Virus record (IMG/VR): IMGVR_UViG_3300043449_000430
Span: 1 to 55,468 of that record
DNA: 55,468 bases
Strand: one strand, 5' to 3'
From: a virus
Part shown: positions 997 to 50,890 of the stretch, piece by piece
Layout of the letters: the number at the start of each line of letters is the position of its first letter
How positions within the stretch are numbered: the first letter of the stretch is position 1
Translations under genes and position numbers: made by a program
Notes under the pieces: generated by a model
Seen by the model: the letters and a program-made list of their open reading frames with translations, nothing else
What the model was told of the DNA's origin: nothing
Databases searched by the model: none

Positions 997-1428
997 CTAC
1001 TTAATTTGAATCATTTTAGGCTTCTTCTCTTCTGGGACTTCCCGCTTTACTACTACATAAAGCATTCCGTCATTGAGATCCGCACTATCAACAAACATGT
1101 ACTCACCAAGAGCAAAACTACGGGTAAACTTTCTACCAGCAATTCCCTTATGCAAATACTCTTCAACATCTTCTGGACGCTCACCCTTAATGATAAGCGA
1201 TCCGTCATGTTCTGTGATTGTAATTGATTCCTTGTTGTATCCTGCTACTGCAAGTTCTACAGCAAATGTATCTTCATCTACTTTGCGAACATTGTATGGC
1301 GGAAAGCCAGATTGATTTGTTGTTGTGTTTGTTAATCGGTCAAACATTTTATCAAATCCAATAAAGAATGGATCGTTTAACCATGTTGGCCCTAGGCCGT
1401 TTGTTGTTGTTACACTTACATAACTCAT
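997..1428 (-). CDS. hsp20: small heat-shock protein, Hsp20/alpha-crystallin family
   Basis: 143 residues, the usual length for a bacterial IbpA-type chaperone. Residues 45-125 carry the alpha-crystallin domain. The FAVELAVAGYNKESITI and GSLIIKGER strings are characteristic, and an IQI-type C-terminal tail (MIQIK) is the oligomerisation motif of the family. Such proteins hold unfolding proteins in the cytoplasm without ATP. Phage copies, for example in cyanophages, are thought to aid virion protein folding or stress survival. The gene has its own strong promoter at 1485-1513 and a good ribosome-binding site (AAAGGGG) before ATG. A terminator upstream separates it from the membrane-protein cluster. 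Confidence 0.93.
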   Translation of the reverse strand: MSYVSVTTTNGLGPTWLNDPFFIGFDKMFDRLTNTTTNQSGFPPYNVRKVDEDTFAVELAVAGYNKESITITEHDGSLIIKGERPEDVEEYLHKGIAGRKFTRSFALGEYMFVDSADLNDGMLYVVVKREVPEEKKPKMIQIK

Positions 1429-2152: not shown

Positions 2153-2728
2153 TTAGTATTGAACAGTCCTAGCAGTTCCCTCTTTTTCATTTATATCTCC
2201 ACGATATTGAGTGCCCTCAAAATTAAACCAGAGGGTTGAGGAGTATCTGTTTGCACTATTTGACAGAACTTCATGCAAGTAATGCTGATTGCTAGGGAAT
2301 GTAATAAAACTGTTAGCCTTTGGCTTAACCTTCAATTCATGCCAAGGGAAGTTGATCTCTCCACCTTCATAATCGTCATTTATGTAGTAGATTACTGCAA
2401 AATCTCCTGCAGTATCAATATGCTTGTTCATATAAAAATCTTTTTGAAATCTAACTAAGTGAACTTCCTGCTTTTTAAATACACGAAGTTTTGCATTATA
2501 GTTGTCCTCACATTTTTTAAAAGCAATTCTAAAAACCTTGTCTAGCATATCAACAATGTCAGAAGACATTCCCTTTTCAGAATTGAAGTATTCAACTCCC
2601 CACGGCTGCTTATGCCATCCAGTAACATTGGTAGCGTACTCAAGAAGTTTTTCGTGCTCTTCTTTGGATAAAACATTTTCGGTTATCTGTATATTGTCTA
2701 CAGAGTTTTCTGATGTAAATTCTGTCAT
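2153..2728 (-). CDS. Fe(II)/2-oxoglutarate-dependent oxygenase
   Basis: 191 residues. The iron-binding triad is visible as His103-x-Asp105 in NKHIDTAGDF and His152 in YLHEV. Arg161 in NRYSSTLWF is the expected 2-oxoglutarate-binding residue. The IYYINDDYEGGEINFP segment is typical of prolyl-4-hydroxylase-like enzymes. Such enzymes hydroxylate proteins, nucleic acids or small molecules; the substrate is unknown. It is a paralogue of the next gene upstream (2732-3334), three bases away. The mRNA is predicted to be leaderless: TGG-TATAAT sits exactly six bases before the ATG, inside the last codons of the upstream gene. Confidence 0.88.
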   Translation of the reverse strand: MTEFTSENSVDNIQITENVLSKEEHEKLLEYATNVTGWHKQPWGVEYFNSEKGMSSDIVDMLDKVFRIAFKKCEDNYNAKLRVFKKQEVHLVRFQKDFYMNKHIDTAGDFAVIYYINDDYEGGEINFPWHELKVKPKANSFITFPSNQHYLHEVLSNSANRYSSTLWFNFEGTQYRGDINEKEGTARTVQY

Positions 2729-2731
2729 GTT

Positions 2732-3334
2732 TTAATTATACCATTCTGATTTTTTAGTGAAGGAAGATCCAGTAAACTGGAACCACATAGAAGAACTAAA
2801 CCTGTCACCAGTTAATATTGTACGAACCTCGTGCAAATAGTTTTCGTTACCAGGGAAGAATATCAAACTATTTGGCGTTGGCTTAATATAAACCTTAAGG
2901 TCTGGGAAACATATTTCGCCACCAATGTAGTCATCATTGATATAGTATATGGAAGCAAGATGGTTTGATTCGGCTGAATCAGTATCTACATGAGGATGTA
3001 GCGCAAGCCCTTTCTCAAACTTAATCAACACAAGATTGTTTCTATCAAAAGGATTAATCTCTACATCATAAAGATCTGTCATTTCTTTGTGAACACGCAC
3101 AGACATTCCCTCTAATATAGACACAATGTTTCCTGGCATCTTATCTAGACCAATGGTCTTAGAGTCCCATGGTTGAAGAGCCCAGTCTTTTTGGGATCTC
3201 ACATACTCAAGAAGAGTTTTGTGGTCTTCTTCTGGCAGGAAGTTCTCAATGTACTTTAGGCTGTCTACAGACTTTCCTATTTTTTCAACATTCTTTAAAT
3301 AAATTTCGTCTTTTTTGGATGGATTCGTAATCAT
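2732..3334 (-). CDS. Fe(II)/2-oxoglutarate-dependent oxygenase, paralogue
   Basis: 200 residues, prolyl-4-hydroxylase-like. His115-x-Asp117 (HPHVDTD), His168 (YLHEV) and Arg178 (DRFSSSMWF) give a complete active site, with IYYINDDYIGGEICFP between. It pairs in tandem with 2153-2728, and the two probably arose by duplication. Its last three residues (WYN) and stop are also the promoter of the downstream copy. Its own ATG overlaps the stop of the preceding gene and is preceded, at six bases, by TGG-TACAAT. There is no ribosome-binding site, so a leaderless message is expected. Substrate unknown. Confidence 0.88.
   Translation of the reverse strand: MITNPSKKDEIYLKNVEKIGKSVDSLKYIENFLPEEDHKTLLEYVRSQKDWALQPWDSKTIGLDKMPGNIVSILEGMSVRVHKEMTDLYDVEINPFDRNNLVLIKFEKGLALHPHVDTDSAESNHLASIYYINDDYIGGEICFPDLKVYIKPTPNSLIFFPGNENYLHEVRTILTGDRFSSSMWFQFTGSSFTKKSEWYN
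2735..2740 (-). promoter_or_regulatory. leaderless extended -10 (TGG-TATAAT)
   Basis: Six bases separate the -10 from the ATG at 2728, so transcription should start at the A of the start codon. The element encodes the end of the upstream oxygenase gene. Confidence 0.7.
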
Positions 3335-3738
3335 GTATCTATTGTACCATAATCTTCAGGTAGTAGGTTTTTGAGTTCGTCATACGCAGCAGCAATCTTT
3401 TTCATCGAGTAGTAGTTGGGGGACATAGAGGCAAGGTCTCCGTACTCTTTAAAGTAGTTTATCTCTGGCTCAATATCAGTAATAAACTTATTTAATGATG
3501 CCTGAACCTCGTCTATATAGGTGTAGGCCCAGTCACGAGAATCTGAAATAAATTTTAAGAAGTCCTCGTTGGCCTTGTCTTTGTCCGTTTTCATTTCCTG
3601 CTTTTGAGACTCTTGGATCATAATGAACTCAAGAGTTTGAGCAAGGACCTGCATAGTCTTTTTCCTTTGAATATAAAACAGAAAACCAAAGGTAGTTGAT
3701 GATACTGATAGGATAACTAATAGGATTGACTGAATCAC
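3331..3738 (-). CDS. membrane-anchored protein of unknown function
   Basis: 135 residues. Residues 2-24 form a hydrophobic membrane helix followed by RKK, and the remainder is soluble, helical and highly charged, with a likely coiled coil at residues 30-100. The topology suggests a cytoplasmic domain anchored to the inner membrane. It overlaps the upstream gene by ATGA and its stop codon overlaps the ATG of the oxygenase at 3334. The codons for its last residues (GTIDT) double as the promoter of that oxygenase. No family recognised. Confidence 0.75.
   Translation of the reverse strand: MIQSILLVILSVSSTTFGFLFYIQRKKTMQVLAQTLEFIMIQESQKQEMKTDKDKANEDFLKFISDSRDWAYTYIDEVQASLNKFITDIEPEINYFKEYGDLASMSPNYYSMKKIAAAYDELKNLLPEDYGTIDT
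3341..3346 (-). promoter_or_regulatory. leaderless extended -10 (TGG-TACAAT)
   Basis: Six bases upstream of the ATG at 3334, with no Shine-Dalgarno between. It lies inside the C-terminal codons of the 3331-3738 gene. Confidence 0.65.
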
Positions 3739-4187: not shown

Positions 4188-4472
4188 TTATTGCTCCATT
4201 GTTAGGTGCTGCCATGTCTTTGCCCAATCAGCCTTGCTCTTATGGCTTGAAAACTCTTTAGACAGTTCTCCGTTTTCTAGGTATACCCCACCCCAAACCC
4301 CCCATTCTTTGCCAGATATACCGACAGAGAAGCATTCTTTCCTCACTGGACAAGAAAAGCATAGTTCATCAATTGCTGGCCTTAAAAGTTCGTCATCTTC
4401 ATACTTTTCAAAAAACAGATTTGTATCGTAGTCTAAGCAGACAGCATCATCTTTCCATTTAAATTTATTCAT
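4188..4472 (-). CDS. WhiB-family iron-sulfur transcription regulator
   Basis: 94 residues. Cys12, Cys38, Cys41 and Cys47 give the C...C-x2-C-x5-C pattern that holds a 4Fe-4S cluster. The signature turn GVWGGVYL follows at residues 57-64. WhiB proteins are restricted to Actinobacteria and their phages. They bind the principal sigma factor or DNA and often respond to oxygen or nitric oxide. A phage copy can redirect host transcription or block host WhiB proteins. This is the strongest single pointer to the host phylum. It lacks the long basic tail of some host members. Confidence 0.92.
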   Translation of the reverse strand: MNKFKWKDDAVCLDYDTNLFFEKYEDDELLRPAIDELCFSCPVRKECFSVGISGKEWGVWGGVYLENGELSKEFSSHKSKADWAKTWQHLTMEQ

Positions 4473-8005: not shown

Positions 8006-8034
8006 ATTATACCCTAGTATGTCAATCATGTCAA
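8006..8034 (-). promoter_or_regulatory. consensus promoter for the 7967-6079 operon
   Basis: TTGACA (8029-8034), 17-bp spacer, TATAAT (8006-8011), predicted start near 7999. A second TTGACA at 8020-8025 lies too close to the -10 to serve as its -35. A downstream TATACT abuts the ATG at 7967. Confidence 0.88.
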
Positions 8035-10443: not shown

Positions 10444-10472
10444 ATTATACCAGTCTACCTACATATTGTAAA
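10444..10472 (-). promoter_or_regulatory. consensus promoter for the endolysin
   Basis: TTTACA (10467-10472), 17-bp spacer ending in TGG, TATAAT (10444-10449). The -35 and spacer are formed by the last codons of the carbamoyltransferase. A short leader carries AAAGGAGG. Confidence 0.85.
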
Positions 10473-11894
10473 ATTATATTCTTTTTCCCACTTAAGAATG
10501 TCATCCTCATCATTCAAAAGTGGCTGGCCTTTTATGTTAAGGCTAGTATTCAAAAGAACTGGGACACCAGTCTGAAGATAAAACTTGTTGATTGCTCTAT
10601 ATAGCCCTGGATGCTGCTCTCTTGTAACCGTCTGCACTCTAGATGTTCCATCTTCATGCACTACAGATGGGATCTTGTCGGGCTTCAAACACTTCACAGT
10701 GTATTGCATATACGGACTATCAAAATCCATATCAAACCATTTATGTGCATGATCAGCCAAAACTACAGGAGCAAACGGTCTGAATAGTTCTCTTTGTTTA
10801 ATCCTATTAACCTTATCTTTTATTAGTGGATCTCGTGGGTCTGCAAGAATTGATCTGTTGCCAAGTGCTCTTGGACCATACTCTGCTCGACCTGATGCTA
10901 CTGCTACTATTCCATCCTTCAATATTCCGTCAACAATTTGTTGAATAGGATAGTCTCCACCAAGATCATAGCCAAGATAAGGAGTCTTCCACTCAAGGTG
11001 CTTTCCATATAGCGCTGCTGCTGCACCCAAAGAACTTCCAGCATCCCCTGGGTTTGGCATAATCCAGATCATATCAAACAGGTTCCATAAAGATGTGTTG
11101 GCAGATGAGTTTAGTGCACATCCACCCATGAATACCAAATTCTTTTTTCCAGTTACAAGTTTAGCCATTCGCATAAACTCCATAAGCCTTGTGGTATAAA
11201 CAACTTGAACTGCTGCTGCAATGTCAAACTTATCTTGTTCTGTTATTGCCATATCCCAGTCGTGAATTCCTTTATGGAAGTTATATTTTTGAGTATGATA
11301 GTTTGGGAAATACTCGTCTACTTCTTTGTAATATCTCTTCCAGTCTCCATAAGCAGCCATACCCATCATAATGTATTCTTCTTGGTTTGGCATAAGGCCA
11401 ATCAGGTCTGTAAATGCAGAATAGAATAGGCCGAAACTAACTGGGTAGTTTTGCTTAAATTTAAGTTTAAGTTTGTTGCCTTCGCCTGACCAGACTGTGG
11501 ATGTATTGTATTCTCCCATTGCATCTAGGACTACAACTACAGCATCGTTAAATGGGCTTGTGTAGTATCCCGCAGCAGCGTGTGAATGATGATGACTAAA
11601 ATAAGTAGTTGGAACTCTTTTTCCAAACATATTATCAATTATATATCTTGGTTTCCAGTCTCCTGCACCACCCTTTAAAAGCAGTCTAGAGGCCTTTAGA
11701 AGAGGTTTTTCATAGTAGGCTATATGATCTGGATAGCCATACTGCAAAGCATCATTGATTAAACTATCATTGACATACCAGTCGTTTTTCTGCTTGCTAT
11801 ATCTTTCTGCATGACCTGCAAAAAGTATTTCTCCATCTTTGATTAGCGATACAGATGCATCGTGAGATGTTTCATTGATACCAAGAATTATCAC
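10455..11894 (-). CDS. carbamoyltransferase, NodU/TobZ family
   Basis: 479 residues. GINETSHDASVSLI at the start and YFSHHHSHAAAGYYTSPF near residue 95 give the metal- and nucleotide-binding sites of the Kae1-like domain. ASGRAEYGPRALGNRSILADPR (residues 340-360) is the YrdC-like C-terminal signature, followed by VLLNTSLNIKGQPL. The enzyme uses carbamoyl phosphate and ATP to carbamoylate a hydroxyl or amine. In phages such enzymes occur with sugar or hypermodified-base pathways; the acceptor here is unknown. It starts with GTG after AAGGATAAA. It is slightly shorter than host members at the end. Confidence 0.9.
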   Translation of the reverse strand: MIILGINETSHDASVSLIKDGEILFAGHAERYSKQKNDWYVNDSLINDALQYGYPDHIAYYEKPLLKASRLLLKGGAGDWKPRYIIDNMFGKRVPTTYFSHHHSHAAAGYYTSPFNDAVVVVLDAMGEYNTSTVWSGEGNKLKLKFKQNYPVSFGLFYSAFTDLIGLMPNQEEYIMMGMAAYGDWKRYYKEVDEYFPNYHTQKYNFHKGIHDWDMAITEQDKFDIAAAVQVVYTTRLMEFMRMAKLVTGKKNLVFMGGCALNSSANTSLWNLFDMIWIMPNPGDAGSSLGAAAALYGKHLEWKTPYLGYDLGGDYPIQQIVDGILKDGIVAVASGRAEYGPRALGNRSILADPRDPLIKDKVNRIKQRELFRPFAPVVLADHAHKWFDMDFDSPYMQYTVKCLKPDKIPSVVHEDGTSRVQTVTREQHPGLYRAINKFYLQTGVPVLLNTSLNIKGQPLLNDEDDILKWEKEYNFTICR

Positions 11895-12825: not shown

Positions 12826-13698
12826 TTAATTACGAATATATGTTGCAGTACCAATCAAAATCTTTGGAAGAGCATTTAGATACTCTACAAAGGTCTTAAA
12901 TGTATTGCGGTTTACATATGATGCTGCTGATACCACGGTTGCCACAGAACTTCCAGCAGTATCTACTGGTGATCCATTGTACTTAGTGATTCTAACCTTG
13001 CCAGGGGCAACCATATCAAGTCCAGGACCTGTATTTGTTGCTGCCTCTAGTTGGGTTGCACTACCCAGTGCTCCAACACCAGTAACTCCACTTACACAAG
13101 ATGGGAATCCAACTACATCTCGTCGCTTATCATTACCTGTTGCAACAAAAACGGGGATGTTACTTGAAGTTAAAGATGAAACTGCGTTAATAGTAACTGT
13201 ATCTGTTGAGCATAGAGCAAGATTTCCTGCACTTACTGAAGACTGGCTAATTGAAAGAGCATCAATGCTATACTTTGAAGCATTCTTTGAAACCCAGTCA
13301 ATTGCTTGGGCAAGAGCCTTAGCATCTCCCCTTGAATTTCCAATGCTTGTTACATCATTAAATCTAACAAAAACAATCTTCAGTTCTGGGTTTACTGTAA
13401 GTGCAGCCTTTACCATTGAGTCTCCATGGTATGTCGCATTGTTGACTGCAGAAGGCCATGGCGCAGATGCAGAGCCCTTCCCTTCCATGAACAATTCACC
13501 GTTAGGGCAAGACATATTTTGGGAAACAACATTTGACTTTACAGTTGTAAAGCAAGCCTCATAAATAATTGATGGGAAGTTATTAGAATTAATAGCAGAA
13601 TCAATAATGGCAAGAACCTTTTGATCTTCTGCTTGTGCTGGGGTAATTACTGAAAACAAAAGTGTTGCTGATAGTAGTGCTAGTAGTGTCTTCTTCAT
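12826..13698 (-). CDS. secreted subtilisin-like serine protease (S8)
   Basis: 290 residues from the ATG at 13698 (AAAAGG upstream). Residues 1-23 are a signal peptide (KKTLLALLSATLLFSVITPAQA). IIDSAINS supplies the Asp, ATYHGDSMVKAAL the His, VFVATGND the oxyanion Asn, and DTAGSSVATVVSAA the nucleophile Ser of the S8 family. Usual GTSMA is GSSVA here. It should act outside the membrane, possibly on surface or wall proteins, or in release. A secreted subtilase is rare in phages. It follows the 64-residue gene by 17 bases, so they probably form one operon. Confidence 0.85.
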   Translation of the reverse strand: MKKTLLALLSATLLFSVITPAQAEDQKVLAIIDSAINSNNFPSIIYEACFTTVKSNVVSQNMSCPNGELFMEGKGSASAPWPSAVNNATYHGDSMVKAALTVNPELKIVFVRFNDVTSIGNSRGDAKALAQAIDWVSKNASKYSIDALSISQSSVSAGNLALCSTDTVTINAVSSLTSSNIPVFVATGNDKRRDVVGFPSCVSGVTGVGALGSATQLEAATNTGPGLDMVAPGKVRITKYNGSPVDTAGSSVATVVSAASYVNRNTFKTFVEYLNALPKILIGTATYIRN

Positions 13699-13715
13699 TG
13701 TATTCCTTTTCATTT

Positions 13716-13910
13716 TTACGATATCATCAATCTGACGATATGACAACATGGGTCTCCACCTTGGTCCCACTCTTCAATCTCTTCTGCGCTCATGTATTGG
13801 TATCCACCGTCATGAGTATTGCAATACGGTTCTGTGATCCATCCCCGCTCAATTCCATTTGTAATCCAAATACCGAACTCTTGTTCTTCTACTGATAAGT
13901 CTTCGCTCAT
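13716..13910 (-). CDS. small acidic protein of unknown function
   Basis: 64 residues, acidic, with WITNGIERGWITEPYCNTHDGGYQYMSAEE in the middle and a Cys pair near the end (GGDPCCHIV). It resembles short actinophage proteins without known role. The mRNA is predicted to be leaderless: a full TTGACA-N17-TATAAT promoter ends six bases before the ATG. It is the first gene of the protease operon. Two in-frame copies of TATAAT precede the ATG. Confidence 0.75.
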   Translation of the reverse strand: MSEDLSVEEQEFGIWITNGIERGWITEPYCNTHDGGYQYMSAEEIEEWDQGGDPCCHIVRLMIS

Positions 13911-13916
13911 ATTATA

Positions 13917-13945
13917 ATTATATCCTTAAAGGCTAACGATGTCAA
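13917..13945 (-). promoter_or_regulatory. perfect consensus promoter, leaderless
   Basis: TTGACA (13940-13945), 17-bp spacer, TATAAT (13917-13922). The ATG at 13910 lies seven bases from the -10, exactly where transcription should start. The -35 encodes part of the last codons of the HslV-like gene. Confidence 0.88.
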
Positions 13946-15252: not shown

Positions 15253-17298
15253 TTACCTCCTCATCCCAATCATTACATTTGCAACCTGTGAAACAATGAT
15301 TACTGGAATAATGACTTCTTGGGCTTTTTCTCTCTGATCGTCTGTCATATCCATACCCAACTCAGAGAAATTGGATAGGAGTTCTAGTGGGTCCACATTA
15401 AATAATGCTCCAAGTGGATCTGCTAAAAATGCTTCTGTTTGTACTTCTGTTACTGCATCTGCTAATGTAAATGGCATAGGAGTTTCTCCTGCTGCCCCTG
15501 CTCTATCAGAGAACTCAACAAATGCTGATGCAAGGGCTGGGTTAGATTTCATTTGATCTGCAATTTTGGCAACTTCTCCTGCAGAAATACCAAGATCTCC
15601 AGCAATCTCTGCTTTTGCTTCTTGTGTCAAAGACTTGAGTGTTTGGCTAACTGCTGTAATTTGCTCAGGGGAAAGTTGAACTAATTTATTGTCTTTGCTA
15701 GTAAGGTTAGCAATAACTCCAGATAAATCTTCTGTTGTCCCAGTACCCTTTTTAGGAATAAGTGCTGCTAGTTCCTCATCCTTGATCTCAGGATTAGTTG
15801 TTGGCTCTACTGTTGGCTCAGGCAACGGTTCTGGCGATGGGGCAACGGTTGGCTCTGGTTCTGGTGCAGGTGTAGGTTCTGGCTCTGGTGTAGGCTGAGG
15901 ATCTACGGTTGGCTCTGGCTTAGGCTCTTCTGTTGGTGGTGCATCTGGTGTAGGATCTGGGCTTGCTACAGGTATTGGTGGTGCTTCTACTGTAGGTTCT
16001 GGGGAAGGTGCAGGGCTTGGAGCAATTGAAGGTTCTGGCTGTGGCTGATTAGCAAGGGCAGTAGCAATTGCAGCAGCGATCCTTTGCTTTTCTTCAAAAT
16101 CCCATTGAGCAATATATTCTTCTTCTGCAGCAGTTATCGCATCATTCATATCACTAATAGCATTGTTATAAACTTCAATAGCATCATCTTTTGCTATTAG
16201 TGCTGAAGCAGTGTTTGTTTGTGCGGTTTCATGTGCAGTTTGTGCATCATCTTTTTCATCTTGTGCTTGTTCTAAATCATCTTGTAGATTATTGAGGGTT
16301 GAAACTGCCTGATTATAAACAGATAACTTATCGTTATAAACATCTTGTGCTGCATTCTTTTCAGCAAGAGCATTATTATATGCATTTATTTGTGACTGTG
16401 TTGGACCTGATCCAGAAGAAAATGTTCCAAGATTACAACTAAACCCTACCCCCCAGCCACCAGTATAGTCGCACCCTGCTCCTGTCCATCCTCCAGGTAT
16501 AGCCCAACCAAGATGATAAGATCCAGGACCTCCACCGTTATACCACCAAATTTCTACATCAAATGTCTTGTCTTCAGTTACATCATAAACAGGTGAATAC
16601 TGGCTCCACCTAACGCCTTGCTCTTGCCAATTACTAATAGCAAGTTGTCCATCAATATACATTTTAAAGCCATCGTCTGTATACCCTGCAAAATATGTGG
16701 ATGTCCAGTGTGATGGAACAGTGATCTGTCCAGTAAACTTAACTACAATATTTTCATACCTATTGCCACATACTGGAAGTTGCATAGAATTTGAATTCCA
16801 TGTGCCAGAACAAATAACAGAATCTGGGACTGCTATGCTTGGCCAAACTCTGGCTAAGTTATATACAGTGTATTGAAGTCCTGATCCACCTGCTGACTGC
16901 ATGTTAGATTGTGCTGTTTGAAGATTAATATTGGCTATGCTCAATGCCTCTTGAGCATTATTTTTATTAGTTTGGGCAGTCGCTACTGTTGCTGTTTGTC
17001 CATCTACTGCTGACTGGGCAGAGGATAGATTTGATATTTTTGTATTAAGTGTGGATAGGGCTGACGTTTCTGCTTCTACTGATTGGGCATAGGACTGTTC
17101 TGCTGATGACTTATTATCCCTGGCAATAACGGCAGCGTCATATTTGTCCTGGGCGACATCAATAAGTGAAACCAACTCGGCACTATCAGTAAGGTCTGAA
17201 ACCTTCTGATTCAGGGCTTCTATCCTTTGTGCACCTACTGTTATAGGGTCATCAGAATGAGCATCTGTGGGGGCTATTGCAAGCCATCCAAAGGCCAA
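15253..17298 (-). CDS. secreted PA14-like, coiled-coil and Pro/Glu-repeat surface protein
   Basis: 681 residues from a TTG at 17298. Residues 25-140 form a coiled coil. Residues 145-290 hold a PA14-like beta domain (TSTYFAGYTDDGFKMYIDGQ and WWYNGGGPGSYHLGW), known from carbohydrate-binding proteins. Another coiled coil follows. A Pro/Glu/Thr repeat (PEPTP, PEPEP) spans about residues 415-505, and a hydrophobic helix lies near the C-terminus. The frame is open upstream to 17334 and there encodes a signal-peptide-like start beginning IKRLLRI, but without ATG, GTG or TTG beside the strong GAGGGGGAAGG site. The true start may be the ATA at 17334. Confidence 0.75.
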   Translation of the reverse strand: MAFGWLAIAPTDAHSDDPITVGAQRIEALNQKVSDLTDSAELVSLIDVAQDKYDAAVIARDNKSSAEQSYAQSVEAETSALSTLNTKISNLSSAQSAVDGQTATVATAQTNKNNAQEALSIANINLQTAQSNMQSAGGSGLQYTVYNLARVWPSIAVPDSVICSGTWNSNSMQLPVCGNRYENIVVKFTGQITVPSHWTSTYFAGYTDDGFKMYIDGQLAISNWQEQGVRWSQYSPVYDVTEDKTFDVEIWWYNGGGPGSYHLGWAIPGGWTGAGCDYTGGWGVGFSCNLGTFSSGSGPTQSQINAYNNALAEKNAAQDVYNDKLSVYNQAVSTLNNLQDDLEQAQDEKDDAQTAHETAQTNTASALIAKDDAIEVYNNAISDMNDAITAAEEEYIAQWDFEEKQRIAAAIATALANQPQPEPSIAPSPAPSPEPTVEAPPIPVASPDPTPDAPPTEEPKPEPTVDPQPTPEPEPTPAPEPEPTVAPSPEPLPEPTVEPTTNPEIKDEELAALIPKKGTGTTEDLSGVIANLTSKDNKLVQLSPEQITAVSQTLKSLTQEAKAEIAGDLGISAGEVAKIADQMKSNPALASAFVEFSDRAGAAGETPMPFTLADAVTEVQTEAFLADPLGALFNVDPLELLSNFSELGMDMTDDQREKAQEVIIPVIIVSQVANVMIGMRR

Positions 17299-17372
17299 GA
17301 AGGTGGCTGTTGCTATACGTAATAATCTCTTTATTAGCCTTCCCCCTCGCAGACTGGATGTCTGATAGGATG

Positions 17373-17378
17373 ATTATA
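17373..17378 (-). promoter_or_regulatory. extended -10 (TGG-TATAAT) for the PA14-like gene
   Basis: TGG-TATAAT just after the terminator of the previous gene, predicted start near 17366. A leader of about 30 nt carries GAGGGGGAAGG. No convincing -35; its position would lie in the terminator T-tract. Confidence 0.6.
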
Positions 17379-17389
17379 CCATTTTATTG

Positions 17390-17425
17390 CACAAAAAAGG
17401 GGCCACCATAATTGGCAACCCCTTT
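17390..17425 (-). terminator. rho-independent terminator
   Basis: 7-bp stem AAAGGGG/CCCCTTT (17419-17425 with 17396-17402), followed by a T-run on the minus strand. It ends the 17439-18545 transcript. Confidence 0.75.
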
Positions 17426-17438
17426 AGTGTTGGACTAA

Positions 17439-18545
17439 TTACTTAAGCAAAGCAACCTTAGCCTTTGGATTCTTTGCATTCCACTTCTTAGCGAGTGCAT
17501 TGAATGATGCCTTAATCGTTGCAAGTGCTGCTGCGTTATCTGCAGTCAACTTAGCGATTGTTGCATCCTTAGCAAGAATTGCTGCATCTGAAGCAACCTT
17601 TGCATCAGCAAGAGCCTTTGCAGAAGCAGCCTTTTCAGCAGCAAGATCTGCAGCAGCCTTAGCGTTAGCAGTTGCTATAGCAGCCTCTGCTACAGCCTTT
17701 GCAGCAAGTGCTGCATCCTTAGCAGCAGCCTGAGCAGCAAGTTCTGATACTAGATCACGAACTGCGATCTCTGCAAATGGTGCAAGAGTGCGAGAATTAA
17801 GACCAGTTACATCAGCAGAGTTTGCATCTGATGAAGTTGTTGGTGCAAATGTGATTAGTGAACGTGTTCCAGTTGTTGGAAGTGTTGCAGAAAACTTTGC
17901 AACTCCGAAATCAGCAAGTGTAGCACCAGTTGTTGCTGTTGCTGTGTCTAGTGTTGCTGTAGCAGCAAATACTGTTGCTGTGATTGACTTACCAGAAACC
18001 TTGTTTCCGAATACGTCTGTTGCAGTAACTGTAATTTCCTGCTTTGTTCCAGCAGCGCCGTTTGCAGGTGCTGAGACAGCAAGGTTATTAATCTTGCCAG
18101 CAGTTCCCTGTACGTAGTATGTAAGTTGTGTTCCACCGTTGGTGACTACAACTGTACCAATTGCTGTTGTCTTTGTGTAGACATAAAATGTTGCGGTTGT
18201 TCCTGTACCAGTTGCAATTGTCAAAGATGATGATCCTGACGATGCTCCTACTGGTGCAGCAGATGTGTGTAGTGCAGACACGATTGTTGCGTTTGTTGCT
18301 ACTACAGAAACAGATGTTCCTGTGTCAACTGTTGCGACGAACTTGAGTGCGTCAGCAGCGTCAACTGAGTTGTCTGCAGGGACTGGCAATGCAGCAGGTG
18401 TAGCGATTGATGATGCCGTTGAGTTAGCGGTTCCATCAAGAGTTACAGCGACTGACATTACAGCAGCACTTGCAGGTGTTGCTACGATTGTGCCCAAAGT
18501 CATGGCTGCAACCATGGCTAGTGCGATTTTCTTAAATGAGTTCAT
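17439..18545 (-). CDS. secreted Ig-like and coiled-coil surface protein
   Basis: 368 residues. A classic signal peptide (residues 1-27, ending TPASA) is followed by Ala/Thr/Val-rich beta sequence. One part (APANGAAGTKQEITVTATDVFGNKVSGKSIT) reads like a bacterial Ig-like domain. Residues 255-345 are an Ala-rich coiled coil and the tail is basic. This is the make-up of S-layer or adhesion proteins, unusual in a phage. It may alter the infected cell surface or bind other virions, but this is inference. AAAAGGAAAT precedes the ATG and a terminator follows. Confidence 0.7.
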   Translation of the reverse strand: MNSFKKIALAMVAAMTLGTIVATPASAAVMSVAVTLDGTANSTASSIATPAALPVPADNSVDAADALKFVATVDTGTSVSVVATNATIVSALHTSAAPVGASSGSSSLTIATGTGTTATFYVYTKTTAIGTVVVTNGGTQLTYYVQGTAGKINNLAVSAPANGAAGTKQEITVTATDVFGNKVSGKSITATVFAATATLDTATATTGATLADFGVAKFSATLPTTGTRSLITFAPTTSSDANSADVTGLNSRTLAPFAEIAVRDLVSELAAQAAAKDAALAAKAVAEAAIATANAKAAADLAAEKAASAKALADAKVASDAAILAKDATIAKLTADNAAALATIKASFNALAKKWNAKNPKAKVALLK

Positions 18546-23400: not shown

Positions 23401-24093
23401 TTAAGCGTTGTCGGTTTTGTTTGTTTTAGTTAAGTTTCCTTCTTTTTCAAAAAAGTTCTCGTTGTACTTTAAAAATACTGGATCTGACTGCCAAGTCTTA
23501 AGTCTTTCTTTTCTTTCTTCTGGATTACGGGCAGCAAAGTTTAACTTTTCAAAATCTTCTCTTGTTGAGAAATGCATAGTTAAAACTTCTGTGTAGTCTC
23601 CTTCTTTAAACAATACTGGCTCTCTCCAGTGCACTTGACCAGCGCCCCAGAATACAAGAAGATCTCCATACTGAAGATTAAAACTTTCGTTTTCAATCAC
23701 AATCGGCCAATCTATATTGGCACCTAACTGGTAATCAATTGTTAGTTTAGAAAAATAATTATCTGAATCATAGTGTACTGGTAATTTTGGATTGGTTGCT
23801 TCATTATGCTCCTTGTTATAACTTAAATAACTATTGTGAGACATAAAAACATCTTCTCCAACTAAGTTAGAGGCAAGAACTTCAATCTTTCTCTGAATAG
23901 TTGGTGGATACATAACTTCTATCTGCATTCTTGACAAGTCTGGCAAGATAAGTGGAGAGTAGAATGTGCCTAGGTCTTTGGCAGTTTTTTGATACTTAAT
24001 GATTGCCCTTATGACCTCTACTTCCTCATCGCTAAGGAAGTTCTTTATAATGTGTGGAACTATCTTGTTCTTTGGTTCGTGTCCTGTGTTCAT
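23401..24093 (-). CDS. Fe(II)/2-oxoglutarate oxygenase-like protein
   Basis: 230 residues from the ATG at 24093. LPVHYDSDNYFS gives His107-x-Asp109, and LVFWGAGQVHWREP gives His155 and a candidate Arg157 for 2-oxoglutarate. The overall fold is like the prolyl hydroxylases at 2153 and 2732 but divergent. The mRNA is predicted to be leaderless: TATAAT lies exactly six bases before ATG. This fourth oxygenase stands inside the replication region rather than with the other three. Substrate unknown. Confidence 0.75.
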   Translation of the reverse strand: MNTGHEPKNKIVPHIIKNFLSDEEVEVIRAIIKYQKTAKDLGTFYSPLILPDLSRMQIEVMYPPTIQRKIEVLASNLVGEDVFMSHNSYLSYNKEHNEATNPKLPVHYDSDNYFSKLTIDYQLGANIDWPIVIENESFNLQYGDLLVFWGAGQVHWREPVLFKEGDYTEVLTMHFSTREDFEKLNFAARNPEERKERLKTWQSDPVFLKYNENFFEKEGNLTKTNKTDNA

Positions 24094-24099
24094 AATACT

Positions 24100-24105
24100 A
24101 TTATA
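24100..24105 (-). promoter_or_regulatory. leaderless -10 (TATAAT)
   Basis: Six bases before the ATG at 24093, within the last codons and stop of the 24101-24388 gene. No Shine-Dalgarno and only a weak -35. Confidence 0.6.
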
Positions 24106-30442: not shown

Positions 30443-30711
30443 TCGCTTTTCCTTTTCCCCGTATATACTGCCTGTACTGATAATTTAAATTCAAAAAAGT
30501 TCTTTGTACTATTATACCTTATCGTGAAGTCTGGGTCAAGATCAATTCTTGGAACATACCCACTTAACTTCATTTCTGATATCAATAACCTTATATATTC
30601 TTCTCTAAGTCGTCCGATCATTGAGTCGTCATGGATTATGCCATCGATATAAAACCTTTTAATGGTCTTATGATGGTATGAATCATTAGTGCTGACACTC
30701 TTTTTTGACAT
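30361..30711 (-). CDS. phage protein of unknown function
   Basis: 116 residues, mixed fold with EEYIRLLISEMKLSGYVPRIDLDPDFTIRYN and EFKLSVQAVYTGKRKSEWIAGIDG. No family recognised. The last 82 bases overlap the primase start in another frame, an unusually long overlap. TATAAT lies five bases before the ATG, so a near-leaderless message is possible. It sits between helicase and primase, perhaps as a replication accessory. Confidence 0.7.
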   Translation of the reverse strand: MSKKSVSTNDSYHHKTIKRFYIDGIIHDDSMIGRLREEYIRLLISEMKLSGYVPRIDLDPDFTIRYNSTKNFFEFKLSVQAVYTGKRKSEWIAGIDGTNPILIPQSKSSESLQDRV

Positions 30712-30723
30712 ACCATATTATAA

Positions 30724-33010: not shown

Positions 33011-33147
33011 CGTCCCTCCAAGGTGTGGCTAGGTGGATGAAAGAATACTCTAAATCCACAACTCATACAATAAACTTCTAAATGGTTAATCTCAGTATAC
33101 TGTCTATCTACGAACATTCTACCTTTGCATTTTTTACAAGACATCAT
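32956..33147 (-). CDS. zinc-ribbon protein
   Basis: 63 residues. MSCKKCKGRMFVDRQ...VYCMSCGFRVFF gives two C-x2-C pairs, a classic zinc ribbon. A basic tail (LLKREQSRAKN) follows. Such proteins bind nucleic acid or partner proteins. It links the tail module to the MerR-like gene, and overlaps both. Start ATGATG follows the minor tail stop. Confidence 0.75.
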   Translation of the reverse strand: MMSCKKCKGRMFVDRQYTEINHLEVYCMSCGFRVFFHPPSHTLEGRWLLKREQSRAKNTMSHL

Positions 33148-33590
33148 TAGTTAGGTATTCCAACTATGATCAGGTTAATACCAATACTTGTATCTCCACC
33201 AGCGTTGAACTTTACGGTTCCCTCTACTTGAGAAGTTGATATGCTATTAATTGTTACAGTTACATCTTTTCCAGCATCTGTGCTTCCAATGTTAATTGGT
33301 GTTGCAGTAACCACTGGGGCAAACTTAAAGTCTGTTCCAAATGGATAAGAAAAAGTTTTAGATGACCCTGCAGTCTGTGTTGTGCTTGTTGTCACCTGAA
33401 CATACCCACCGATTATACGGGCTTCTGAGGCTTTTACGCTTTGCTTTCCAGATGTCGGCGTATCGACTGTCACATATTTGTATGTTGACGGAGATATCTG
33501 GGTAGACAAATCATTAATAGCCTTAACAATCTGATAGATATAAGTTACGTCTAGCGGTTGCCCTCTTTCGGGCACAGGTAAAATAGCCAT
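33147..33590 (-). CDS. tail-associated protein, probable minor tail or fibre
   Basis: 147 residues. PPVTATPIN-type beta strands and repeated TVTINSISTSQVEGTVKFNAGG look like a beta-rich, fibre-tip domain found in minor tail proteins of actinophages. The first 35 residues are helical (YIYQIVKAINDLSTQI), a likely trimer stalk. No enzyme motif. The place after the other minor tail genes supports this. The exact function is unknown. Confidence 0.6.
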   Translation of the reverse strand: MAILPVPERGQPLDVTYIYQIVKAINDLSTQISPSTYKYVTVDTPTSGKQSVKASEARIIGGYVQVTTSTTQTAGSSKTFSYPFGTDFKFAPVVTATPINIGSTDAGKDVTVTINSISTSQVEGTVKFNAGGDTSIGINLIIVGIPN

Positions 33591-33597
33591 AATACAA

Positions 33598-34029
33598 TTA
33601 TACCAGAGACCTGACTTCAGAATCGTAAACCTGTAGAGAGGTGTTAACTACTGGATTTATTGATGCTAACTGGACTAAGACTCTAACGGAAGATGTCCCA
33701 GTTTTTAAAAATGAATAACTGGTACCAGTAGCAATACCAACATTTGAATACGCCCCACCATCAAATGAAGCAAAGACGTCATACATTTCTTGCGTAGAAG
33801 TTCTTGATCCTTTAGACCAGTTTACAAGAATTGTGTTGCCAACAACATTTAAATCACCTGGCAAAACCTGAACTGCTTCTGAGTCAACCAAAAATATTTG
33901 TGACCAGGCAGACTTTCTATTCTTATCTTCTGATACCAGTCTAAACCTTGCGACTCTACCATTTTCTGATGTTACCTTTCCGAGCAACTCTTTCTTAACA
34001 ATAATATTTTTTATTCCTGCGTCAGCCAT
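33598..34029 (-). CDS. tail protein with fibronectin-like beta domain
   Basis: 143 residues. VNWSKGSRTSTQEMYDVFASFDGGAYSNVGIATGTSYSFLKTGTSSVRVLVQLAS has the strand pattern of a fibronectin type III-like domain common in phage tails. Coupled to the next gene by ATGA. A role in host or surface binding is likely from setting, not proven. Confidence 0.6.
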   Translation of the reverse strand: MADAGIKNIIVKKELLGKVTSENGRVARFRLVSEDKNRKSAWSQIFLVDSEAVQVLPGDLNVVGNTILVNWSKGSRTSTQEMYDVFASFDGGAYSNVGIATGTSYSFLKTGTSSVRVLVQLASINPVVNTSLQVYDSEVRSLV

Positions 34030-49782: not shown

Positions 49783-50106
49783 TTAGTTATTTCCAAGATT
49801 GCCGAGTAATGATGCGTCAGAAAGTTTAATTCCTGATGCCTCTTCGACGATCTTGTACACTGTTGGAAGATCCAGATTTTCTTCTAGAGATTCCTTGTCT
49901 TCTGCCAATTCTGGCTTGTATTGTTGCATTGCGATTTGTACACAGTCCATAAGTAGATCCATAGACTTTTCGTTATCGTCTGCGACCTTTGCGATATCCT
50001 CAAACTTCTTCATAAATGGACGAAGTAGCGAGATCTTTAGTGGTCGGACCTTGACCTTTGTGCCGTCAATTAGTGTTACTGTCTTTTCTTCAGTGGCAGT
50101 TGCCAT
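49783..50106 (-). CDS. tail assembly chaperone-like protein, short form
   Basis: 107 residues. VTLIDGTKVKVRPLKISLLRPFMKKFEDI...LEENLDLPTVYKIVEEASGIKL is similar along its whole length to the first 100 residues of the protein at 50165. Location just above the tape measure indicates the tail assembly chaperone that binds it. It carries its own extended -10 (TGG-TATAAT, 50133-50138) and a near-perfect AAGGAGG site, so it can be made independently. Confidence 0.75.
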   Translation of the reverse strand: MATATEEKTVTLIDGTKVKVRPLKISLLRPFMKKFEDIAKVADDNEKSMDLLMDCVQIAMQQYKPELAEDKESLEENLDLPTVYKIVEEASGIKLSDASLLGNLGNN

Positions 50107-50132: not shown

Positions 50133-50138
50133 ATTATA
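50133..50138 (-). promoter_or_regulatory. extended -10 (TGG-TATAAT) for the short chaperone gene
   Basis: Start near 50126, with a leader holding a CCTTATAAGG palindrome and AAGGAGG before the ATG at 50106. The -35 is weak. Confidence 0.6.
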
Positions 50139-50164
50139 CCATAGGAGAGGCTTATTTTTTGCTA

Positions 50165-50842
50165 TTAATAAGTTTCATAGTCAAGCCCCATTCCTATACC
50201 AAAACCAGCCCTTTCAGCATTCATTCCTTGTAAGGCTAGAATATCATTTCCATTAGTTGTTGCACCTTTGCTAAAAACTCTAGCCTTCATATCTTCCCAT
50301 TCGTTACCGCTTCCAGAATTCTTATCTAGATCTACACCCTGCATAGAGGCAGCAAACTTCTTATCTGAATAATCTAGTTCTCTTTTTATTTGAAGAGTTG
50401 CAGTTAGTTCTTGCATAGACAAAGATGACTCTAGTTCATGATAGTCTTTCCATATTCCAAGCAAGAAAACCTCAGACTCTAGTTTTGCTAAGTCTAATGT
50501 GTCCCACGTGGATCCGCTATCTACTGCCTGATTTTTTACTGTATCCTCTGACTTCTCATTAATTTTAATACCTGCTGCAACATCAATTATTTCATAGATT
50601 GTTGGCAAGTCTAGGTTGTCTTCTAGTTCTTCTATGGTTTTTATAGACGGGCAATACTGTTGCATTGATATAAGAGCACACTGTGCAAGAACAGCAATTG
50701 ATTCATCATCTGTTTTTGCATCTTTGATTGTCTCAAAGTTTTCTAAGAATTCTCTAAGGTATTTTATTTTTAATGGCGAAACAGTAATAATCCTGTCATC
50801 GACTAATGATATTTTTTTGGTATCGTATACTTTTGTTGCCAT
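50165..50842 (-). CDS. tail assembly chaperone-like protein, long form
   Basis: 225 residues from the ATG at 50842. Residues 1-100 are paralogous to the short protein at 49783 (PLKIKYLREFLENF, LEDNLDLPTIYEIIDVAAGIKI). Residues 105-225 form an extra domain with ELTATLQIKRELDYSDKKFAASMQGVD, like the extension normally added by a -1 frameshift in siphoviruses. The mRNA is predicted leaderless: TGG-TATACT, six bases, ATG. A terminator separates it from the tail tube gene. Confidence 0.78.
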   Translation of the reverse strand: MATKVYDTKKISLVDDRIITVSPLKIKYLREFLENFETIKDAKTDDESIAVLAQCALISMQQYCPSIKTIEELEDNLDLPTIYEIIDVAAGIKINEKSEDTVKNQAVDSGSTWDTLDLAKLESEVFLLGIWKDYHELESSLSMQELTATLQIKRELDYSDKKFAASMQGVDLDKNSGSGNEWEDMKARVFSKGATTNGNDILALQGMNAERAGFGIGMGLDYETY

Positions 50843-50848
50843 TATACA

Positions 50849-50854
50849 AGTATA
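50849..50854 (-). promoter_or_regulatory. leaderless extended -10 (TGG-TATACT)
   Basis: Six bases upstream of the ATG at 50842 and directly after the UUCG terminator. No Shine-Dalgarno. Confidence 0.65.
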
Positions 50855-50864
50855 CCAAACAGAA

Positions 50865-50890
50865 AGGCCCAACCCCGAAGGATTGAGCCT
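50865..50890 (-). terminator. terminator with UUCG tetraloop after the tail tube gene
   Basis: 11-bp stem (50880-50890 with 50865-50875, two G-U pairs) capped by TTCG on the minus strand and followed by TTTCTGTTT. It ends the tail tube transcript. Confidence 0.85.

Follow-up and report, generated by a model that had tools for sequence, protein, structure and literature searches.

In actinobacteria, a TANNNT box located ~12 bp upstream of the start marks leaderless genes, which lack a Shine-Dalgarno (SD) sequence and account for about 20% of genes (PMC3160421). In mycobacteria, nearly one-quarter of transcripts are leaderless, a 5' ATG or GTG being both necessary and sufficient (PMC4633059). 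Leaderless promoters have been predicted in phages as well: SigA promoters in the cluster O mycobacteriophages, such as Corndog (PMC4351075), and the promoter of a toxin-antitoxin gene in Adephagia (PMC11373665). The extended -10 promoters of Thermus phage P23-45 are read by host RNA polymerase (PMC7403470). The gene starts analyzed here appear to be of this known kind; what our sequence comparisons add is genome-wide, phylogenetically conserved evidence for them in an uncultured phage group.

The predicted starts share the box-to-start geometry and the absence of an SD with the leaderless genes of Actinobacteria (Mycobacterium, Streptomyces, and Corynebacterium). Unlike those genes, they lie in phage genomes, are predicted from sequence, use ATG only, and have a -10 element that is more often extended and AT rich. 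Cluster O phages such as Corndog likewise have promoters whose predicted +1 is the first base of the start codon; however, such promoters are few there, whereas we found ~20 leaderless candidates per near-complete relative, conserved over many contigs. The middle and late genes of P23-45 offer a further parallel in their extended -10 promoters and their reliance on host RNA polymerase, which is presumed here, but the sigma-remodelling protein and the temporal class belong to the P23-45 side of the comparison. Leaderless late mRNAs were reportedly described in P23-45 by Berdygulova in 2011.

The stretch of DNA that we analyzed (the window) is a 55-kb viral record of 55,468 nucleotides with 39% G+C and, judged by its genes, is an actinophage related to Stanwilliamsviridae. 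It carries a WhiB-like gene (4284 to 4457, minus strand), an actinophage marker present in 10 of the 10 records tested, and its terminase shares 55% identity with Streptomyces phage terminases from end to end; among the related Streptomyces phages, several have been assigned to Stanwilliamsviridae. Since related contigs reach 100 to 119 kb, the window is probably a fragment. The presence of WhiB in all records tested and the terminase kinship point to an actinobacterium as the most likely host, and published work on low-GC actinobacteria and the phages that infect them (PMC10202952), taken with the IMG/VR origin, suggests that the phage probably comes from fresh water. The single model tried for a sigma-70 region 2 gene, Sigma70_r2, had no match in the ten records; a phage-encoded sigma factor was therefore set aside, and transcription from these promoters presumably depends on host RNA polymerase. 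No DNA nearly identical to positions 18000 to 42900 was found in the phage collection, and a scan of genome contigs for a pointer to the host found nothing. An HSP20-like small heat-shock protein (997 to 1428, minus strand) was rejected as a host marker because the homologs returned were mostly alphaproteobacterial; its nearest bacterial relatives found, at ~45% identity, are alphaproteobacterial as well, which is unexpected for an actinophage. Also on the minus strand are two large alanine- or proline-rich proteins adjoining the terminase gene (15253 to 18545), of which the product of 17439 to 18545 has a signal-peptide-like stretch at its N-terminal end, a protein that by eye is subtilase-like and has a signal-peptide-like stretch (12826 to 13770), and a 479-residue protein that by eye resembles a carbamoyltransferase (10455 to 11894).

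The original prediction held that a -10 box ends exactly six bases before ATG at 2728, 3334, 13910, 24093, and 50842, with variants at 174 (seven bases) and 30711 (five bases), and all of these were found as described. It also held that TGG or a -35 element precedes the box at four of the five; we found TGG at 2728, 3334, and 50842, TTGACA at 13910, and neither at 24093. A site that it missed, at 33590, is the most strongly conserved of all. The excess of this spacing that the prediction required in related genomes was evident in ~3.4 Mb of related phage contigs (277 loci), in which each extended -10 element (TGnTAnAMT) was scored for its distance to an ATG that opens an open reading frame of at least 60 codons and is preceded by an in-frame stop no more than 60 nt away. 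Distances of 0 to 15 were represented by 0, 1, 0, 0, 0, 5, 17, 4, 4, 2, 1, 1, 0, 1, 1, and 1 gene families, respectively. The peak at precisely 6 nt is sharp and comprises 17 families, with 73 distinct sites, over a background of 0.7 families. Distances of 9 to 15 were nearly empty, and a second, broad hump at 16 to 38 contained sites with SD sequences. None of the 25 families at 5 to 8 showed strong anti-SD pairing, versus 59% of the 29 families at 15 to 40, in agreement with the claim that the leaderless starts have no SD. When distinct N termini were grouped over 4.2 Mb, 48 groups had an ATG at distance 6, compared with a mean of 1.75. The corresponding Poisson probabilities are minute but nominal, since related contigs and families are not fully independent units. 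Among leaderless promoters, 55% have a TGn before the box, versus 17% of other TATAMT boxes. Three near-complete relatives have 11, 19, and 16 sites at 5 to 8 versus 24, 27, and 19 at 15 to 40, and three Streptomyces relatives have 3, 8, and 6 sites at 5 to 8, with 3, 7, and 5 of them at exactly 6; among four Streptomyces distance-6 sites checked, three are annotated coding sequence starts and one is not. In TunaTartare, a cultured Streptomyces phage of the Stanwilliamsviridae, the distance-6 genes at 73259, 80340, and 105397 are annotated coding sequences. These spacings suggest that the phage group has two classes of start, leaderless (5 to 8) and SD led (~16 to 38), in broadly similar numbers.

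The best case is the start at 50842. Directly upstream of its promoter lies an intrinsic terminator (50857 to 50889, minus strand), composed of a hairpin (50866 to 50889) and a T-rich tail that extends to 50857; 3 of the 10 hairpin pairs show two-sided (compensatory) changes in an alignment of 12 sequences. The extended -10 element TGGTATACT (50849 to 50857) follows, then six bases and the ATG, leaving no room for a leader behind the terminator. The TGGTATACT-N6-ATG arrangement is kept in most of 80 relatives; the distance is 6 in 22 of the 27 distinct orthologous upstream sequences, and TAGAAT or TAAAAT at 8 to 14 takes its place in the most divergent ones. The predicted leaderless gene (50165 to 50842, minus strand) matches annotated Streptomyces phage tail assembly chaperones in tblastn, and its G and T parts are joined in a single reading frame.

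Conservation extends to other starts. At 24093, a TATAAT box (GTGTATAAT; 24100 to 24105, minus strand) stands six bases before the ATG. This box was present in all of the distinct orthologous upstream sequences (12 of 12), including those of proteins with as little as 59% identity. The SD score of -8.6 for this start stems from GGAGG-like bases that precede the box and so would not be part of the predicted mRNA; a few other single sites also obtain SD scores from such bases. At 13910, the promoter TTGACA-17-TATAAT (13917 to 13945, minus strand) matches the consensus at 12 of 12 positions, and the box and its six-base spacing were retained in most of the 12 distinct orthologous upstream sequences; the small gene that it would serve (13716 to 13910, minus strand; 64 residues) has a weak SWIM zinc-finger match below the Pfam cutoff. 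A second perfect TTGACA-17-TATAAT match lies at 8006 to 8034 (minus strand). On the plus strand, TGGTATACT (158 to 166) stands in intergenic DNA seven bases before the ATG at 174 of a predicted leaderless methyltransferase gene (174 to 869; PF13578, E = 8e-8), and the box and its seven-base spacing recur in five of five distinct upstream sequences with differing flanks. The TATAAT at 30717 to 30722 (minus strand), five bases before the ATG at 30711, is kept in only four distinct sequences whose flanks are equally conserved, which is weak evidence for conservation of the box itself.

An AT-rich genome could yield TATAAT near ATG by accident; at 39% G+C, and with two of the seven TATAMT-N6-ATG matches in the window (1997 and 2937, the latter inside a 2OG gene) set aside as not being gene starts, this idea has some basis. 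However, all seven matches lie on the minus (coding) strand, and 100 dinucleotide shuffles of the window gave a mean of 1.68 matches and never reached 7, consistent with the earlier impression that the repetition is beyond chance. Other distances lack a comparable peak, the distance-6 peak was absent for GTG, TTG, CTG, and control codons (N termini grouped over 4.2 Mb), and a reversed-pattern control gave at most 1 match versus 4 to 14 in each freshwater record. We regard an origin by base composition as virtually excluded. Alternatively, RNA could start a few bases before the ATG, making these mRNAs SD independent and not strictly leaderless. Spacings of 7 to 9 in some families and in divergent chaperone orthologs fit such short leaders, but a mode of exactly 6 in 17 families speaks against them as the rule, and we consider this reading improbable. 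Taken together, the spacings of 5 (30711), 7 (174), and 8 to 14 (divergent chaperone orthologs) would correspond to leaders of 0 to 8 nt.

Another possibility, to which we assign a slightly lower probability still, is that the boxes are simply codons of the upstream gene and that the genes downstream rely on translational coupling. This is partly true at 2728, the lead site of the original prediction, which proved the weakest as a conserved promoter: TGGTATAAT (2735 to 2743, minus strand) encodes Trp-Tyr-Asn-stop of the preceding gene, and the orthologs have TATAGT, TACAAT, TACAGT, TATGGT, or TATGAT at shifting spacings, variation expected of a stretch that encodes the C terminus of the upstream protein. 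We consider it a doubtful promoter for the 2OG oxygenase gene (2153 to 2728, minus strand; PF13640). Coupled reinitiation could also translate the gene at 3334, since its start overlaps the upstream stop codon (ATGA). However, its extended -10 element, TGGTACAAT (3341 to 3349, minus strand; TGGTARAAT in relatives), which lies within the 3' end of the gene at 3331 to 3738, six bases before the ATG, is constrained beyond its coding role. The start region reads TATGGTARAATAGATAC-ATG; in 15 distinct sequences, the Tyr, Gly, Ile, Asp, and Thr codons are invariant at synonymous sites, whereas free variation is seen in the Leu and Pro codons immediately preceding them. Moreover, the box is retained in loci L345 to L347 and L355, which lack the upstream gene or have another in its place; it is lost in L352 and L358. 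The same constraint is seen at 33590, where TGGTATAAT (33597 to 33605, minus strand) stands six bases before the ATG of a predicted leaderless gene in the structural region (33147 to 33590, minus strand), whose product had no Pfam or PHROG match. The stretch TCTGGTATAATT...ATG is identical in all orthologs listed, and the final codons of the upstream gene, CTG GTA TAA, are invariant in 39 distinct sequences, but many codons further upstream vary synonymously. Finally, coupling does not account for 50842, behind its terminator, or for 174, in intergenic DNA. Overall, the position of the box is conserved in orthologs at 50842, 33590, 3334, 24093, 13910, and 174 and is not conserved at 2728.

The spacing peak and its conservation, the nucleotide-level constraint on codons under the boxes, and the missing SD uphold the view of these elements as a leaderless promoter module: box and spacing are kept in orthologs while the flanks change. 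We think it very probable that the genes are leaderless, the box-N6-ATG geometry placing +1 at the A of AUG; from it we infer the 5' ends, the use of the host sigma factor, and translation from the 5' AUG. In the mechanism that we propose, the main sigma factor of the host RNA polymerase would direct transcription from a strong -10 element, often extended (TGG or TGN), with little dependence on a -35 element. RNA synthesis would begin about seven nucleotides past the -10 box, so that six bases between box and ATG would give an mRNA without a leader, and the ribosome would recognize the 5'-terminal AUG much as in mycobacteria, although the GTG starts that mycobacteria accept form no peak here. 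Such a start would make up a 15-nt expression unit that could fit behind a terminator or within the 3' end of an upstream gene.

The prediction that three of the genes are 2OG oxygenases stood for two, 2153 to 2728 and the predicted leaderless gene at 2732 to 3334 (minus strand; PF13640, E = 5e-10); the third (23401 to 24093, minus strand) is 2OG-like by its match to phrog_2954 (E = 1e-6), with no Pfam match and no match in a PDB sequence search (23404 to 24093). Across Pfam-named genes of the window and three near-complete relatives, with classes assigned by hand, leaderless genes were mostly accessory (2OG oxygenases, JmjC, P450, glutathione peroxidase, methyltransferases, and an NMN transporter, to which PHROGs adds HNH endonucleases), whereas SD-led genes were mostly core (ribonucleotide reductase, prohead protease, CHAP endolysins, and tail fibre, to which PHROGs adds a single-stranded DNA-binding protein). 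The contrast, a rough Fisher P of ~0.01 for hand-made classes and families that are not independent, is suggestive of leaderless starts favoring accessory genes. The proposed class of cargo genes held in part, in that accessory enzymes are over-represented; however, 50842 and 33590, among the best-conserved sites, lie in the structural region. The further suggestion of the original prediction, that such mRNAs could escape translation control during infection, is a conjecture. Morons are autonomous accessory genes, each with its own promoter and its own terminator, and the leaderless genes may be of this type: each has a predicted promoter of its own and accessory functions are over-represented among them, flanking terminators having been looked at for 50842 only.

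The chaperone locus sets both classes of start side by side. About 60 bp past the end of the long copy begins a G-only paralog (49783 to 50106, minus strand) with 44% identity to the N terminus of the long copy; its extended -10 element, TGGTATAAT (50133 to 50141), is 26 nt from the start, and it has the SD AAGGAGG. Over relatives, mean SD energies are -2.6 kcal/mol for the long copy versus -11.0 kcal/mol for the short one. Almost every freshwater locus yielded a short copy (81 upstream sequences), and a stricter rule finds two separate copies in 65 of 87 sequences, six Streptomyces loci being among the sequences. Streptomyces relatives have a single chaperone gene with the G and T parts in different frames and the same order of terminator and promoter, but with an SD leader; the leader was therefore either lost in the freshwater lineage or gained in the others. 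We tentatively propose that the pair took over from the programmed frameshift in determining the long:short chaperone ratio, which would then be set at translation initiation, a hypothesis that we hold to be possible but doubtful. T4-like phages are described as using a short and a fused copy instead of frameshifting (Vladimirov 2022, as cited in PMC10885494); the separate short and fused long genes are alike, and the difference is that the long copy is predicted to be leaderless and the short copy SD led in this phage. For mycobacteria, one account describes leaderless translation as comparable in robustness to leadered translation (PMC4633059), and in another its efficiency may be lower, depending on the model (PMC7148126).

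Predicted leaderless genes in this phage stand directly beside ordinary leadered genes, and the chaperone paralogs, with near-identical promoters, one leaderless and one SD led, form a natural matched pair for measuring what a leader is worth. Gene callers that rely on the SD may misplace or miss starts in uncultured freshwater phages of this group. Our findings indicate that leaderless expression, far from being an isolated curiosity, can serve a phage group as a conserved strategy across the genome.
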